DNA from: Sphingomonas sp.
GTDB taxonomy: Bacteria; Pseudomonadota; Alphaproteobacteria; Sphingomonadales; Sphingomonadaceae
Assembly: GCA_021732445.1 (NCBI GenBank)
Contig: JAKFUZ010000001.1
Span: 1-64,000 of the forward strand
DNA: 64,000 nucleotides
Direction of reading: 5' to 3'
Part shown: positions 8,375 to 59,046 of the stretch, one piece after another
Layout: every line of letters starts with the position of its first letter
Position numbering within the stretch: the first letter of the stretch is position 1
The notes under the pieces: generated by a model
What the model was told of the DNA's origin: nothing
The model's input: only the letters and a program-made list of their open reading frames with translations
Databases searched by the model: none
Position numbers and translations under genes: made by a program

Positions 8375-8794
8375 TCAGGCGAACCGCTGCCTCAGTGCCA
8401 GCATCGCCAGCGCCGCCTTGGCCGCTTCGCCGCCTTTGTCTTTTTCGTCGGGCCTGGCGCGGGTGAGCGCCTGCGCCTCATTCTCGGTCGTCAGGATGCC
8501 GTTCCCGATGGCAAGCCCATCCATGCTGAGCGCCATCAGCCCGCGCGCGCTTTCCCCCGCCACGATTTCGAAATGATAGGTTTCGCCGCGAATGACGACG
8601 CCAATCGCGACATAGCCGTCATAGCCGCCGGTCTCGCTTGCCAGCGCAATCGCGCCTGGAATTTCGAGCGCGCCGGGCACGGTTATGGTTTCATGCGCAT
8701 GGCCTGCCTCCTCGATGGCGGCCCGCGCACCGGCCAGCAACAGGTCGTTCAGATGCTCATAGAAACGCGCTTCGACGATTAAGATTCTGGCCAT
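8375..8794 (-). CDS. ribH: 6,7-dimethyl-8-ribityllumazine synthase
   Basis: [30 protein letters not shown]...[14 protein letters not shown]...[18 protein letters not shown]. Confidence 0.96.
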
Positions 8795-9318
8795 TATCGC
8801 TCCTGTGGCGCCCCGTTCTGAGCAAGGGCTGCGCCCTGATATCGCGGGTCGCTGCTTACCTCTCGTACTGCCCAGGCGGGCGGCTGCAAAGCCCTAAGCC
8901 CGGCATCGTCAGGCCATTCGATTTCGCAAAGTTCAAGCGGGGCGAGCGCACCGTCGAAGACGTCGAGGCTGAAGCTCGCGCCGCAATCGATGAGCAGATA
9001 GCGGCGCTTGGCCAGGGCCGCCGCCGGGAGCGCCGCGAACACGGCATATTCGGCCGCGGTCAGATAAGCGGTAACGATGGGCCGGGCGAGCGGATCGGCG
9101 GCGTCATATTTCTTGGTGAGCTTCAGCGCGCAGGCGCCGGATACTGCGGTCATCCGCCGCAGCCTCAGCCTCGTACCGGTTATGTAGCGGTCCTCGATCA
9201 GCACCGTCGGCACTTCGGCAAGCGCGGGCCGCCGGGCCGGGTCAACCAGCCAGCGGCGTTCGCGCTCGATATGTGCATATTTGGGCGCTTCGGCCTCGCC
9301 GCAGGCGGTGCGGATCAC
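8794..9318 (-). CDS. CYTH domain-containing protein
   Basis: [20 protein letters not shown] (ExExK-like signature), [17 protein letters not shown]; overlaps ribH and ribB termini. Confidence 0.85.
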
Positions 9319-10616
9319 TCGCCGCCCGTTCCCGGTATCGGCCGTTCGCCAACGATGCTCAGCCCGTAGCCGTCAAGCCCCACCAGCATGTGGTGGGTGT
9401 TGGTCAGCAATATCATGTCGGCCACGCCGAGTTCGGCCAGAATTTGCGCGCCGACGCCATAGTCGCGCAGCTCCTCCACCTCGGGCGCGCCCGCGCTTTT
9501 GCCCTCGGCGCGCAGCTTCATGAAACGTGTGACAAGATCCTTCATCGGCCGGTTGATGACGACGATGACGCCGGCGCCTTCCTCGGCAATCAGCTCCATC
9601 GAGCGTGACAGGAGCCCCGCACGCTGATTGTCTTCGCCAAAGACATCGACGAACATCGACATGGTGTGCATACGCACAAGCGTTGGCTTGTCGGGGTCGA
9701 TCTTGCCCTTCACCAGCGCAATCTGTTCATCGCCCGTGGCCTTGTTGAAAAAGGTCATCGCGCGCCAGTCGCCGCCCCACTTGCTGTGGAACGCCATTTC
9801 CGCCCGCTTCTCAACGAGATGGTCGTGGCGGCGGCGATAGGCGATCAGGTCGCGGATCGTGCCGATCTTGAGCTTGTGGAGCCGCGCAAAGCCGATCAGG
9901 TCGTCGAGCCGGGCCATCGACCCGTCGTCGTTCATGATTTCGCAAATCACGCCAGACGGGTTCAGCCCGGCGAGGCGCGACACATCCACCGCCGCCTCGG
10001 TATGCCCGGCCCGCACGAGCACACCGCCGTCGCGCGCGACCAGCGGAAAGACGTGGCCGGGCGTCACAATCTCGTCCTTGCCCTTTGATGCGTCGATGGC
10101 GACGGCAACGGTGCGGGCCCGGTCGGCGGCCGAAATGCCGGTTGTCACCCCGTCGCGCGCCTCGATCGAGACGGTGAAGGCGGTTTCGTGCCGGGTGCCG
10201 TTGTGGCGGCTCATCAGGTCGAGGCCGAGCTGGTCCACCCGTGCCTTGTGGAGCGCCAGGCAAATGAGGCCGCGGCCGTGCGTTGCCATGAAGTTGATGG
10301 CGTCTGGTGTAGCCATTTGTGCCGGAATGATGAGGTCGCCCTCATTCTCGCGGTCTTCATCATCGACAAGAATGAACATGCGCCCGTTGCGCGCCTCGTC
10401 GATTATCTCCTCGATGGGCACCAGCGCCGGGGCGTCATCGCTGTCGAACAGGACGCGTTCAAGCTTGCGCAGCGTGTCGGCGGTCGGGTTCCAGTCGGGC
10501 GAGTCGAGGTCGCGCAAACTGTTGGCGTGGAGCCCGGCGGCGCGGGCAAGACCAGAGCGGGACATGCCACCCTGCGTGACGAGGCCGCGAACGCGGCTGA
10601 TAAGATCGATGCTCAT
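9315..10616 (-). CDS. ribB: HTH-3,4-dihydroxy-2-butanone-4-phosphate synthase with degenerate GTP cyclohydrolase II-like C-terminus
   Basis: N-term GMSRSGLARAAGLHANSLRDLDSPDWNPTADTLRKLERVL (XRE-like HTH), then RNGRMFILVDDEDRENEGDLIIPAQ...TRHETAFTVSIEA...GGVLVRAGHTEAAVD (RibB). The C-term LVRMHTMSMFVDVFG lacks the RibA Cys ligands. Confidence 0.93.
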   Translation of the reverse strand: MSIDLISRVRGLVTQGGMSRSGLARAAGLHANSLRDLDSPDWNPTADTLRKLERVLFDSDDAPALVPIEEIIDEARNGRMFILVDDEDRENEGDLIIPAQMATPDAINFMATHGRGLICLALHKARVDQLGLDLMSRHNGTRHETAFTVSIEARDGVTTGISAADRARTVAVAIDASKGKDEIVTPGHVFPLVARDGGVLVRAGHTEAAVDVSRLAGLNPSGVICEIMNDDGSMARLDDLIGFARLHKLKIGTIRDLIAYRRRHDHLVEKRAEMAFHSKWGGDWRAMTFFNKATGDEQIALVKGKIDPDKPTLVRMHTMSMFVDVFGEDNQRAGLLSRSMELIAEEGAGVIVVINRPMKDLVTRFMKLRAEGKSAGAPEVEELRDYGVGAQILAELGVADMILLTNTHHMLVGLDGYGLSIVGERPIPGTGGE

Positions 10617-10627
10617 GCGACGCATAA

Positions 10628-10674
10628 ATCACACCACAATGTGATTGTCAACATCACAAACCACATTGTGGTGT
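10628..10674 (-). promoter_or_regulatory. Candidate ribB promoter/operator: inverted-repeat cluster
   Basis: Perfect 13-bp arms ACACCACAATGTG (10631-10643) and CACATTGTGGTGT (10662-10674). Six TGTGRT/AYCACA half-sites. TTGACA on the minus strand (10651-10646) inside the loop. Confidence 0.65.
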
Positions 10675-11307
10675 TTAGGCGTGCGCCGCAATCCATTGGC
10701 GCTGCTGTTCCATTCGCGCGAGATAGCGGGCCAGCACGTCGATTTCGATGTTGACTGCCTGCCCCGGCGCCAGCCCGCCAAGCGTGGTGACCGATTGCGT
10801 GTGCGGAATGATGTTCACTGAAAAATGCGCGCCTCCGGCCTGATCGGTCACCTGATTGACGGTCAGCGACACACCGTCGATCGTAACCGATCCCTTGCTG
10901 GCGAGAAACGGGGCCAGCGCATCGTCGACGCCAATGCCGATCCGCTTTGAATCGCCGTCCGCGCAGACGCCAATCACCTCGCCGAAGCCATCGACATGCC
11001 CCGTCACAATATGGCCGCCCAGTTCGTCGCCAAGCTTCATCGCGCGTTCCAGGTTAAGGCGGCGGCCCGCAGACCACTGGCCTTGCGCAGAGCGGCTTAT
11101 CGTTTCGTGCGAGACATCGGCGGCAAACCAGTTGCTGGTTCCATCATGGCCCTTGTCGATGACGGTCAGGCACACGCCCGAACACGCGATGGACGCGCCA
11201 AGATCGACCAGCGCCATGTCATAGCCTGTGCGCACGACGATGCGCCTGTCGCCGGCTTCCTCGACCCGCTCGATGGTGCCAATATCGGTGATGATGCCGG
11301 TGAACAT
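10675..11307 (-). CDS. ribE: Riboflavin synthase
   Basis: MFTGIITDIGTIERVEEAGDRR..., two lumazine-binding repeats; SIACSGVCLTVIDKG, VTIDGVSLTVNQV. Confidence 0.96.
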   Translation of the reverse strand: MFTGIITDIGTIERVEEAGDRRIVVRTGYDMALVDLGASIACSGVCLTVIDKGHDGTSNWFAADVSHETISRSAQGQWSAGRRLNLERAMKLGDELGGHIVTGHVDGFGEVIGVCADGDSKRIGIGVDDALAPFLASKGSVTIDGVSLTVNQVTDQAGGAHFSVNIIPHTQSVTTLGGLAPGQAVNIEIDVLARYLARMEQQRQWIAAHA

Positions 11308-11311
11308 GCGA

Positions 11312-12298
11312 TTATCCCTGCTGTGTTTCGTAGACCTCAAGCCGGTCGTCGCCAAGCATGCGTGAGTCGGCAAGCTGCCAGCGGCCATGCGCGTCCGCAA
11401 GCTTTTCCAGACCGATATCGCCAAGCGCCGGCTTGCCCGCGCCCAGCAACACCGGCGCGCGGTACAGCAGCAGCCGGTCGACCAGCCCGGCGCGCACAAA
11501 AGCCGCCGCGGCACCGGCGCCGCCCTCCACCAGCACCTCGTTCACCGCCTCAAGCGCGCCGATGGCGGCGGGTGTCGCGACGGCCGTCCAGCCCGGCGGT
11601 GCTGTGCCGTGCGTCAGCAGCAGGCGCTGGGGCGCGCGCGCTTCCAGCCCTGGCAGCCGCACATCTAGGCGGGGCGCGTCGGCCGCAAATGTGCCGCGCC
11701 CGACCAGGATGGCGTCATGGCGGCACCGTTCAACATGCGTGTGCGCGCGCGCCACCGCGCCGGTGATCCACTGGCTTTCGCCACTTGCGGTCGCGATACA
11801 GCCGTCGAGCGACATCGCCAGTTTCAGCGTTACCGCAGGCCGGCCAAGCCGCTGGCGGGTGAGGAAGCCGCGCATCGAGCGCTCGGCGTCGGCGCGGCGC
11901 AGCCCCGGCTCGACCGCGATTCCTGCCGCCGCCAGCAGCGCAAAACCGCGCCCGTCGATCTTGGGAAACGGGTCTTGCAGCGCGGCCACCACCCGCGTGA
12001 CGCCGCTTTCGATGAGCACGTCGGCACAGGCCGGCCCGCGCCCGCCGCGCACGGAGCAGGGTTCAAGCGTAACATAAGCAGTGCCGCCGCGCGCCGCAGC
12101 TCCAGCTTGGGCGAGCGCCATTGCTTCGGCGTGCGGCCGGCCGCCGGGCTGCGTCCAGCCTTGCCCGACGACCTTGTCATCCTTCACGATGACGCAGCCC
12201 ACACTTGGGTTGGGTGCGGTCTGCCCGCGGCCGCGCTCGCCAAGCGCCAGGGCCGCGCCCATGGCCTGCCAGTCGCTTATGGCCCGCCGCTGGCGCAT
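11312..12298 (-). CDS. ribD: Bifunctional diaminohydroxyphosphoribosylaminopyrimidine deaminase / 5-amino-6-(5-phosphoribosylamino)uracil reductase
   Basis: APNPSVGCVIVKD...GRPHAEAMAL...VTLEPCSVRGGRGPACADVLIE; C-terminal RibD reductase LKLAMSLDGCIATASGESQWITG. Confidence 0.95.
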   Translation of the reverse strand: MRQRRAISDWQAMGAALALGERGRGQTAPNPSVGCVIVKDDKVVGQGWTQPGGRPHAEAMALAQAGAAARGGTAYVTLEPCSVRGGRGPACADVLIESGVTRVVAALQDPFPKIDGRGFALLAAAGIAVEPGLRRADAERSMRGFLTRQRLGRPAVTLKLAMSLDGCIATASGESQWITGAVARAHTHVERCRHDAILVGRGTFAADAPRLDVRLPGLEARAPQRLLLTHGTAPPGWTAVATPAAIGALEAVNEVLVEGGAGAAAAFVRAGLVDRLLLYRAPVLLGAGKPALGDIGLEKLADAHGRWQLADSRMLGDDRLEVYETQQG

Positions 12299-12309
12299 CG
12301 CAGCGCTGC

Positions 12310-12657
12310 TCAGAGGCCCCAGGCTTTCAGCTTGTCGTCCAGTTTCTTGAATTCGGCCTGCCGCGCCTTTTGCAGCTTGTCCAGTTCGGCCTTTTCCCGG
12401 GCTCGGGCGACCGAATCGAGCTTTTGCTGGGCGATGATCTGCCCATCGGAGCGGTCGGCCGGCCATTGCTGCACATAGATTATCTCGCGCCTATAGGGCC
12501 GGGCCTGATGCGAATCATGCACAAAACCCGCAACAATAACGCCGGTGACCACCATCGCTATCACCAGAAACACCAATTCATACCGCGACCGGTGCCTGAG
12601 AAAGACCCTAAGGTCGCGAATCGCATGAAATGGCGAGAAGCGCGCAAAATATGACAT
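12310..12657 (-). CDS. Conserved hypothetical single-TM protein
   Basis: MSYFARFSPFHAIRDLRVFLRHRSRYELVFLVIAMVVTGVIVAGF, followed by a charged coiled-coil tail; 11 bp from ribD. Confidence 0.65.
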   Translation of the reverse strand: MSYFARFSPFHAIRDLRVFLRHRSRYELVFLVIAMVVTGVIVAGFVHDSHQARPYRREIIYVQQWPADRSDGQIIAQQKLDSVARAREKAELDKLQKARQAEFKKLDDKLKAWGL

Positions 12658-57595: not shown

Positions 57596-57649
57596 CTTGG
57601 GTTTTTCCTTTCGCACTTGCACAATTTTCTGCCGCACTGCACATAGGGC

Positions 57650-57715
57650 GTGCCTTTCAGGCATCCTCTCCTAAAACTTTCAAGGCCGGTCCCGCCTGGG
57701 GCCGGCTCTTTTTTT
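57650..57715 (+). ncRNA. Candidate ~66-nt small RNA with 5' hairpin, CCTCTCCT single-stranded stretch and strong intrinsic terminator
   Basis: Putative promoter TTGCAC-17-CACATA at 57617-57645. Hairpin TGCCT-ttc-AGGCA. Unpaired CCTCTCCTAAAACTTTCAA. Terminator GCCGGTCCC-gcct-GGGGCCGGC then CTTTTTTT. Confidence 0.6.
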
Positions 57716-57720
57716 GTGCG

Positions 57721-59046
57721 CTAAAGGGCAGGGTCAGTGTCCGCCGCGTGCAGCGGTGCATCTGCCAGGTGCCGCCCCGCGAGCGCCAGCAGCATAAGGA
57801 GCGCGGCCGATGCGGTGAGATAGGGCAGCGGTTTGAACAGTTCATAAAGCGCCACGCCAATTGACGGGCCGAGCACGAACGACGCGCCATTGACCGAGGT
57901 TACCTTGCCCGCGACCGACCCCTGTGCGCTGGCCCCCACCGCAAGCGAAGCGCCGGCGGTAAAGCCCGGCCGGGTGAAGCCAAAGCCCAGCGACGCCAGC
58001 GCATAGGCCAGGGCAATCCCGTAGAGCGACGTCGCCAGCCCAGTGAGCGCGGTGCCAAGCGCCGCCAGCACCAGCCCGCTCAGCACCAGCCGGCGCGGCG
58101 ACAGGTTCAGCAGTGGAATCAGCCCCCATTGTGCCAGCAGCGCGGCACCGGCCCCCATGATGAGCACCAGCCCGGTTGGTTGCAGCGCCAGCACCGGCGG
58201 CAGGTGGAGCCGGTCGATCACCAGAAAGCCAATCGCCTGGCCGGTCATCGCCTGGGCATGGCCCATCACCAGCCCGGCGACCATCCACCCCCTGATCCGC
58301 GGGTCGCCATAGCCGATCTGTTCCGCGCCGCGCGCCGTGGCGGCGGTTATGCTCGCGCCCGAGCTTTGGCCGCCAATTGAGGGATAGGCGGTTGCTGCGC
58401 CGTGCCCGTCGGGCATCACCCCGTCATTGGCGAGCAGGCGCTGCACCGTTACGAACATGCCAGCGCCGAACAGCGCAAACACAAAGGCCGGGCCGGCGAG
58501 CCCGATGGTCACGCCGCCAAGCGCGCCGAGCACCAGATAGGGTGCAATCGCCGGCCCCAAAATGGTGCCCAGCCCAAAGGCGGAGGCAAGCAGGGTCAGC
58601 GCCTTGGTCCGCTCCTCGCGCGATGTTCGCCCGGCGACCAGCGCCTGTACCGCCGGGGGTGCAGCGGCGCCAAACACGCCGTAAATCAGCCGCCCGCCGA
58701 TAAACGCCAGAAAAGCCGCCGGCCCCGAAATCCAGCCATTAATGCCCGCCAGCAACATCGCCCCGCAGAGCGACAGCGACACGACAAAGCCGCCCATGCC
58801 CAGCAGGATCATCGCGCGCCGCCCTTGCCGGTCCGACCGTTTCGCCCAGAAAGGCGCGGCGATGACCCACAACAGCGCCGATACCGAAAACGCCGCCGCC
58901 ACCCCGCTGTCTGCCACATGCAGCGAGCGCCCGAGCGCGGGCAGCACGGATTGCAGCGCGGTATTGCCCGCCGCGATGGTCAGCATCACCATGAAAAGCA
59001 GCGTGAAATCGCGGTTTAGGGCGGGCGCCGCCTTCACGCCCCGCAC
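57721..59046 (-). CDS. MFS transporter
   Basis: 12-TM pattern; APFWAKRSDRQGRRAMILLGMGGF; GRLIYGVFGAAAPPAVQALVA. Confidence 0.93.
   Translation of the reverse strand: MRGVKAAPALNRDFTLLFMVMLTIAAGNTALQSVLPALGRSLHVADSGVAAAFSVSALLWVIAAPFWAKRSDRQGRRAMILLGMGGFVVSLSLCGAMLLAGINGWISGPAAFLAFIGGRLIYGVFGAAAPPAVQALVAGRTSREERTKALTLLASAFGLGTILGPAIAPYLVLGALGGVTIGLAGPAFVFALFGAGMFVTVQRLLANDGVMPDGHGAATAYPSIGGQSSGASITAATARGAEQIGYGDPRIRGWMVAGLVMGHAQAMTGQAIGFLVIDRLHLPPVLALQPTGLVLIMGAGAALLAQWGLIPLLNLSPRRLVLSGLVLAALGTALTGLATSLYGIALAYALASLGFGFTRPGFTAGASLAVGASAQGSVAGKVTSVNGASFVLGPSIGVALYELFKPLPYLTASAALLMLLALAGRHLADAPLHAADTDPAL

Follow-up and report, generated by a model that had tools for sequence, protein, structure and literature searches.

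The window, the whole 64,000-nucleotide stretch of Sphingomonas DNA that we analyzed, carries a cluster of riboflavin genes on the reverse strand in the order ribD, ribE, HTH-ribB, ORF174 and ribH. The gene for riboflavin synthase, ribE (10675-11307, - strand), follows ribD (11312-12466, - strand; the true gene start may be further in) and is the immediate upstream neighbor of HTH-ribB (9315-10616, - strand), which encodes 433 amino acids from a start codon that is conserved in relatives; a second in-frame ATG lies at 10625, within the predicted -10 element. Between ribB and the lumazine synthase gene ribH (8375-8794, - strand), which ends the cluster, is ORF174 (8794-9318, - strand), a frame of 174 codons that overlaps the end of ribB by 4 bp and matches no Pfam model; its start reads like that of a CYTH/triphosphate-tunnel protein. 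An FMN riboswitch or other RNA control of ribB was considered and rejected, with no Rfam match near the gene and none to an FMN riboswitch in the window. Elsewhere in the window, a suhB/mmgR small RNA matched above the Rfam threshold at 57645-57722 (+ strand).

Domains and promoter of HTH-ribB

The product of the gene, HTH-RibBX, is named only ribB in public annotation. Its first 60 residues (10437-10616, - strand) are a Cro/XRE-type helix-turn-helix (HTH) domain, assigned by profile and fold similarity and homologous to standalone phage Cro proteins. A full-length DHBP synthase domain follows (9837-10412, - strand; Pfam DHBP_synthase, E = 8e-83 at residues 72-263 of the 436-residue open reading frame), with its active-site residues intact, including the DDEDRENEGD loop and the catalytic Cys, His and Glu, and with key residues invariant in 96 of 96 HTH-bearing relatives. 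The C-terminal RibX domain (9342-9806, - strand) resembles GTP cyclohydrolase II (GCHII; GTP_cyclohydro2-like, E = 3e-34 at residues 274-428 of the same frame) and lacks the three zinc-binding cysteines of the active enzyme, RibA, their positions being held by S320, Q331 and A333. A separate RibA is encoded elsewhere in the same genome (G000:C11:53700-54185), and a domain search of HTH-RibBX revealed no riboflavin kinase domain of the kind found in the archaeal regulator RbkR. Among solved structures, the closest relative of residues 69-425 is RibBX from Acinetobacter baumannii (6mnz); it aligns end to end (E = 1e-83) and shares both the complete RibB domain and the lost GCHII ligands, but it has no N-terminal HTH; the HTH and the operators described below are additions in the window gene.

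No Pfam HTH model reached its cut-off on the RibB N-terminus, the best being HTH_3 (E = 0.005 on the isolated domain), a model whose cut-off is narrowly passed by the standalone homolog L204. The nearest solved sequences were XRE repressors and a C-protein, all of them weak matches (E = 0.06-1.2). An AlphaFold2 model of residues 1-66 (pLDDT 82) contained helices at residues 2-14, 20-27 and 46-61, with the recognition-helix segment at about residues 30-38 not called helical, and Foldseek matched this model mostly to XRE-type HTH proteins (HipB, C.BclI, SinR and CapH) with a probability of 0.97-1.0 and a TM score of about 0.6; the accompanying E value of about 0.2 is explained by the shortness of the domain. 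The predicted structure thus places the RibB N-terminus in the HTH fold of the XRE/lambda-repressor superfamily. These results confirm a preliminary description of the locus, made from the sequence alone, which had read the gene as a fusion of an XRE/lambda-type HTH with a complete DHBP synthase and a GCHII-like tail that lacks the zinc ligands, and had proposed a structural comparison with XRE folds.

Two palindromes of the type TCACAT-N4-ATGTGA lie in the gap between ribE and ribB, with a TTGACA between them. The proximal putative operator, TCACATTGTGGTGTGA (10629-10644, - strand), is located 28 bp before the ATG and takes up 16 of the 17 bases that separate a probable -35 element, TTGACA (10646-10651, - strand; assigned from the sequence and the promoter consensus of 96 relatives), from a probable -10 element, TTTATG (10623-10628, - strand). 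The distal putative operator, AAACACCACAATGTGG (10661-10676, - strand), is 32 bp upstream of the proximal site and overlaps the ribE stop codon. Transcription would start near 10616, and the mRNA is therefore predicted to be leaderless. The same arrangement recurs in the aligned promoters of 96 HTH-ribB genes, in which TTG (-35) and TA (-10) are separated by a 17-bp spacer formed by the operator, most often at 28-29 bp from the start codon. A second site is enriched at 31-32 bp from the first across these promoters and is often degenerate, with two or fewer mismatches in only 19 of the 96.

Co-occurrence of the HTH and the operator

HTH-RibB is common in the Sphingomonadaceae, a family of soil and water bacteria. 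The preliminary description had suggested surveying the spread of the fusion; we sampled 337 genomes across the class and found none outside this family, and the only other HTH match was a 78-residue standalone protein. We compared 134 Sphingomonadaceae ribB loci, comprising 96 with the HTH (74 in a first set and 22 held out) and 38 without it (23 and 15, respectively), and scored the best upstream site of each by its mismatches to the 12 defined positions of TCACAT-N4-ATGTGA; a few genomes are counted twice in these totals (for example, L003 and G233). The operator, at 0-3 mismatches, was present in all 96 promoters of HTH-bearing genes (22 of 22 held out) and in none of the 38 HTH-less loci (0 of 15 held out), where the best site had 4-6 mismatches in every case. 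Control stretches within the gene likewise gave 4-6 mismatches, with a single exception at 3. On the RibB tree the HTH changed state approximately 11 times (Fitch parsimony), and the operator followed each change; under Dollo parsimony there was one gain and 13 losses, some of them among the nearest relatives of the window.

Gene order accounts for part of this pattern. Most HTH-less ribB genes (36 of 38) adjoin ribE in a ribE operon, so that loss of the HTH accompanies the entry of ribB into this operon and loss of the intergenic region contributes to the correlation. However, 34 HTH-bearing genes, including that of the window, have ribE directly upstream yet keep the operator, and gene order alone is therefore no explanation. 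Across 81 Sphingomonadaceae genomes an exact copy of the operator occurred at most once per genome, with 29 of 30 copies just upstream of HTH-ribB and the remaining one in a prophage of genome G311. In the 2.8-Mb genome of the window no site other than that of ribB has one mismatch or fewer, and a wider regulon was rejected on that ground.

Several further observations concern the distribution of RibB itself. Second, HTH-less copies of RibB (54-56% identical) occur in genomes that also encode HTH-RibB (G313:C10:38113, G320:C3:17758 and G336:C93:29415), and one HTH-RibB gene, annotated only as ribB, is carried on the 620-kb plasmid p1 of Novosphingobium sp. ES2-1 (L231, 2501-3775). Two near-complete genomes of genus g2 (G162 and G247) gave no RibB match and may represent riboflavin auxotrophs or encode a different RibB.

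Phage Cro relatives and their operators

Similarity searches with the HTH returned standalone proteins of approximately 65-100 amino acids, which in L203, L204 and L205 are encoded divergently from CI/S24-type repressors. Both sites recur, at a distance of 31 bp, in the CI-Cro intergenic region of L203, with a further pair beyond CI. In the G311 prophage, the cro gene to which HTH similarity led is divergent from a CI/S24 repressor and has these sites at -29 and -60. Approaching from the operator alone, we scanned 2.9 million viral contigs and obtained 11 matches, two of which (L211 and L212) encode a relative of the HTH (E = 4e-18 and 2e-17), starting 29 bp downstream of the operator, together with a CI/S24 gene. 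Lambda-like immunity regions occur in L203 (1-10001), L211 (6532-8653) and L212 (9409-11321), with one pair of operators between CI and Cro and another on the far side of CI, an arrangement like that of OR and OL.

Standalone members with a different recognition helix have other palindromes in the same place. A Cro-like protein of Pseudanabaena phage Pan3 is 48% identical, and in Pan3, L204 and L205 the TCACAT palindrome is replaced by GCATAT-N4-ATATGC; L225 and L229 have palindromes of the GCGCAT/ACGCAT type. Position and spacing are therefore traits of the family, within which HTH-RibB appears, judging by its promoters, to carry the TCACAT specificity. The window gene has the phage layout, with a homologous HTH, a 6-N4-6 site 28-29 bp before the ATG and, about 31 bp further upstream, a second one. 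The lambda-like Cros (L203/L219, L211 and L212) share with it the HTH, the operator, the 31-32 bp pairing, the placement in the -35/-10 spacer and the distance of 28-29 bp to the ATG. They differ in being short free proteins opposite CI/S24, whereas the HTH of the window is fused to an enzyme and no divergent CI gene adjoins it, the upstream neighbor being ribE on the same strand. Prophages of the TCACAT class were rare, with one clear case in 401 genomes (G311, whose RibB has no HTH), too few to judge a possible incompatibility between HTH-RibB and such prophages.

RibB as a putative repressor of its own gene

Taken with the family-wide comparisons, this architecture makes it highly probable, in our view, that an ancestral sphingomonad acquired a fusion of ribB to a cro-operator unit of the phage type and that RibB represses a single target, its own gene. 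A working DHBP synthase would then also repress the unit from which it is transcribed (HTH-ribB, ORF174 and ribH). RibB is a dimer, in keeping with a 16-bp palindrome whose half-sites are spaced by one turn; each dimer would put two Cro-type HTHs on a TCACAT-N4-ATGTGA palindrome. The two sites, three helical turns apart on the same face of the DNA, would suit two dimers, which may bind cooperatively. Because the proximal site covers the -35/-10 spacer, we propose that the bound enzyme blocks RNA polymerase, occluding the promoter of ribB and of the downstream ribH. That RibB very probably turns down its own gene agrees with the self-repression suggested in the preliminary description, which is now strongly supported by a palindromic operator in the gene's own promoter, present exactly where the HTH is; the region proposed there for binding, 10620-10680, proved the right one and holds both palindromes. 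The operators themselves, their conservation across the family and the relationship to phage Cro were absent from that description.

In its HTH, its pair of operators, the spacing of its promoter and the distance from operator to ATG, the ribB unit matches the cro unit in lambda-like immunity regions of temperate phages, and such a unit was therefore probably captured whole. The fusion would have taken place in an ancestor of most Sphingomonadaceae and been followed by several losses, with the operators lost each time.

It is quite possible, if short of probable, that this self-repression is also gated by a metabolite, with FMN, riboflavin, Ru5P or DHBP bound either by the active site of RibB or by its RibX tail and the ligand changing the affinity of HTH-RibB for DNA. 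The preliminary description had likewise suggested an enzyme that senses its own pathway; the alternative would be a response to the level of the protein alone. The archaeal HTH-riboflavin kinase RbkR, a flavin-pathway enzyme that also acts as a regulator, provides a precedent (PMC8305020). The RibX domain has been retained despite the loss of its catalytic ligands, but it is kept equally in HTH-less relatives of RibB and is therefore not there for regulation alone, and the sequence itself gives no hint of a ligand.

The direction of transfer could also have been the reverse, with ribB evolving the HTH and operators first and phages taking them up as cro, although we regard this as unlikely. 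HTH-ribB is far commoner than matching phages in current collections, and a tree of the 60-residue HTH domain, with a support of 0.35, does not separate the two directions. However, the phage Cros are more diverse, with at least three operator types (TCACAT, GCATAT and GCGCAT) and a mean identity of 40%, compared with one type and 59% among the RibB HTHs, a difference that favors capture from phage by host. In addition, another pair of sites lies beyond CI in the phages, which is what a native immunity region should have, and RibB bears no HTH of this kind in the other alphaproteobacterial genomes that we sampled.

Very improbable, finally, is a reading in which another repressor, acting in trans, has the palindromes as its operator, and the HTH that RibB carries is vestigial or serves protein interaction. 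In its favor, an HTH linked to an enzyme can lack binding activity, and this one scores below Pfam cut-offs. Against it, the operator is missing wherever the HTH has been lost, even in close relatives of the window; in phages, free-standing relatives of exactly this HTH lie 28-29 bp behind a palindrome of the same kind; and the genomes contain no second perfect site elsewhere.

Since the operator of host RibB is also that of certain temperate phages, a self-repressing RibB and these phages might cross-regulate, with HTH-RibB acting on the phage immunity region and phage CI/Cro on host riboflavin synthesis. We consider this distinctly unlikely; if true, it would make a vitamin enzyme a partial superinfection immunity.

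Enzyme-repressors as such are already known. NadR, PutA and BirA are metabolic enzymes that repress genes of their own pathways, with folds and pathways other than those of HTH-RibB, and RbkR has, like HTH-RibB, an N-terminal HTH on a flavin-pathway enzyme, but it is archaeal and a different enzyme. To our knowledge, RbkR has no phage-type operator unit, and we know of no evidence that NadR, PutA or BirA arose by capture of a phage cro unit and its operators. Our search of the open-access literature found no report of a bacterial HTH-RibB or its regulation. The window gene would be a clear case of a core metabolic enzyme bearing a phage-type repressor domain with the whole operator-promoter unit, and it suggests a specific, easily tested control of riboflavin synthesis in Sphingomonadaceae that needs no FMN riboswitch.

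A related Cro-type HTH was also found N-terminal to a CoaBC-like protein, an identity that comes from reading the sequence and points to CoA biosynthesis, in another family of the order (L223, 988-2481, - strand, in G034; L224, 806-2290, - strand, in G086). No palindromic operator was seen upstream of either gene, and their occurrence in a second family suggests that fusions of this kind recur.
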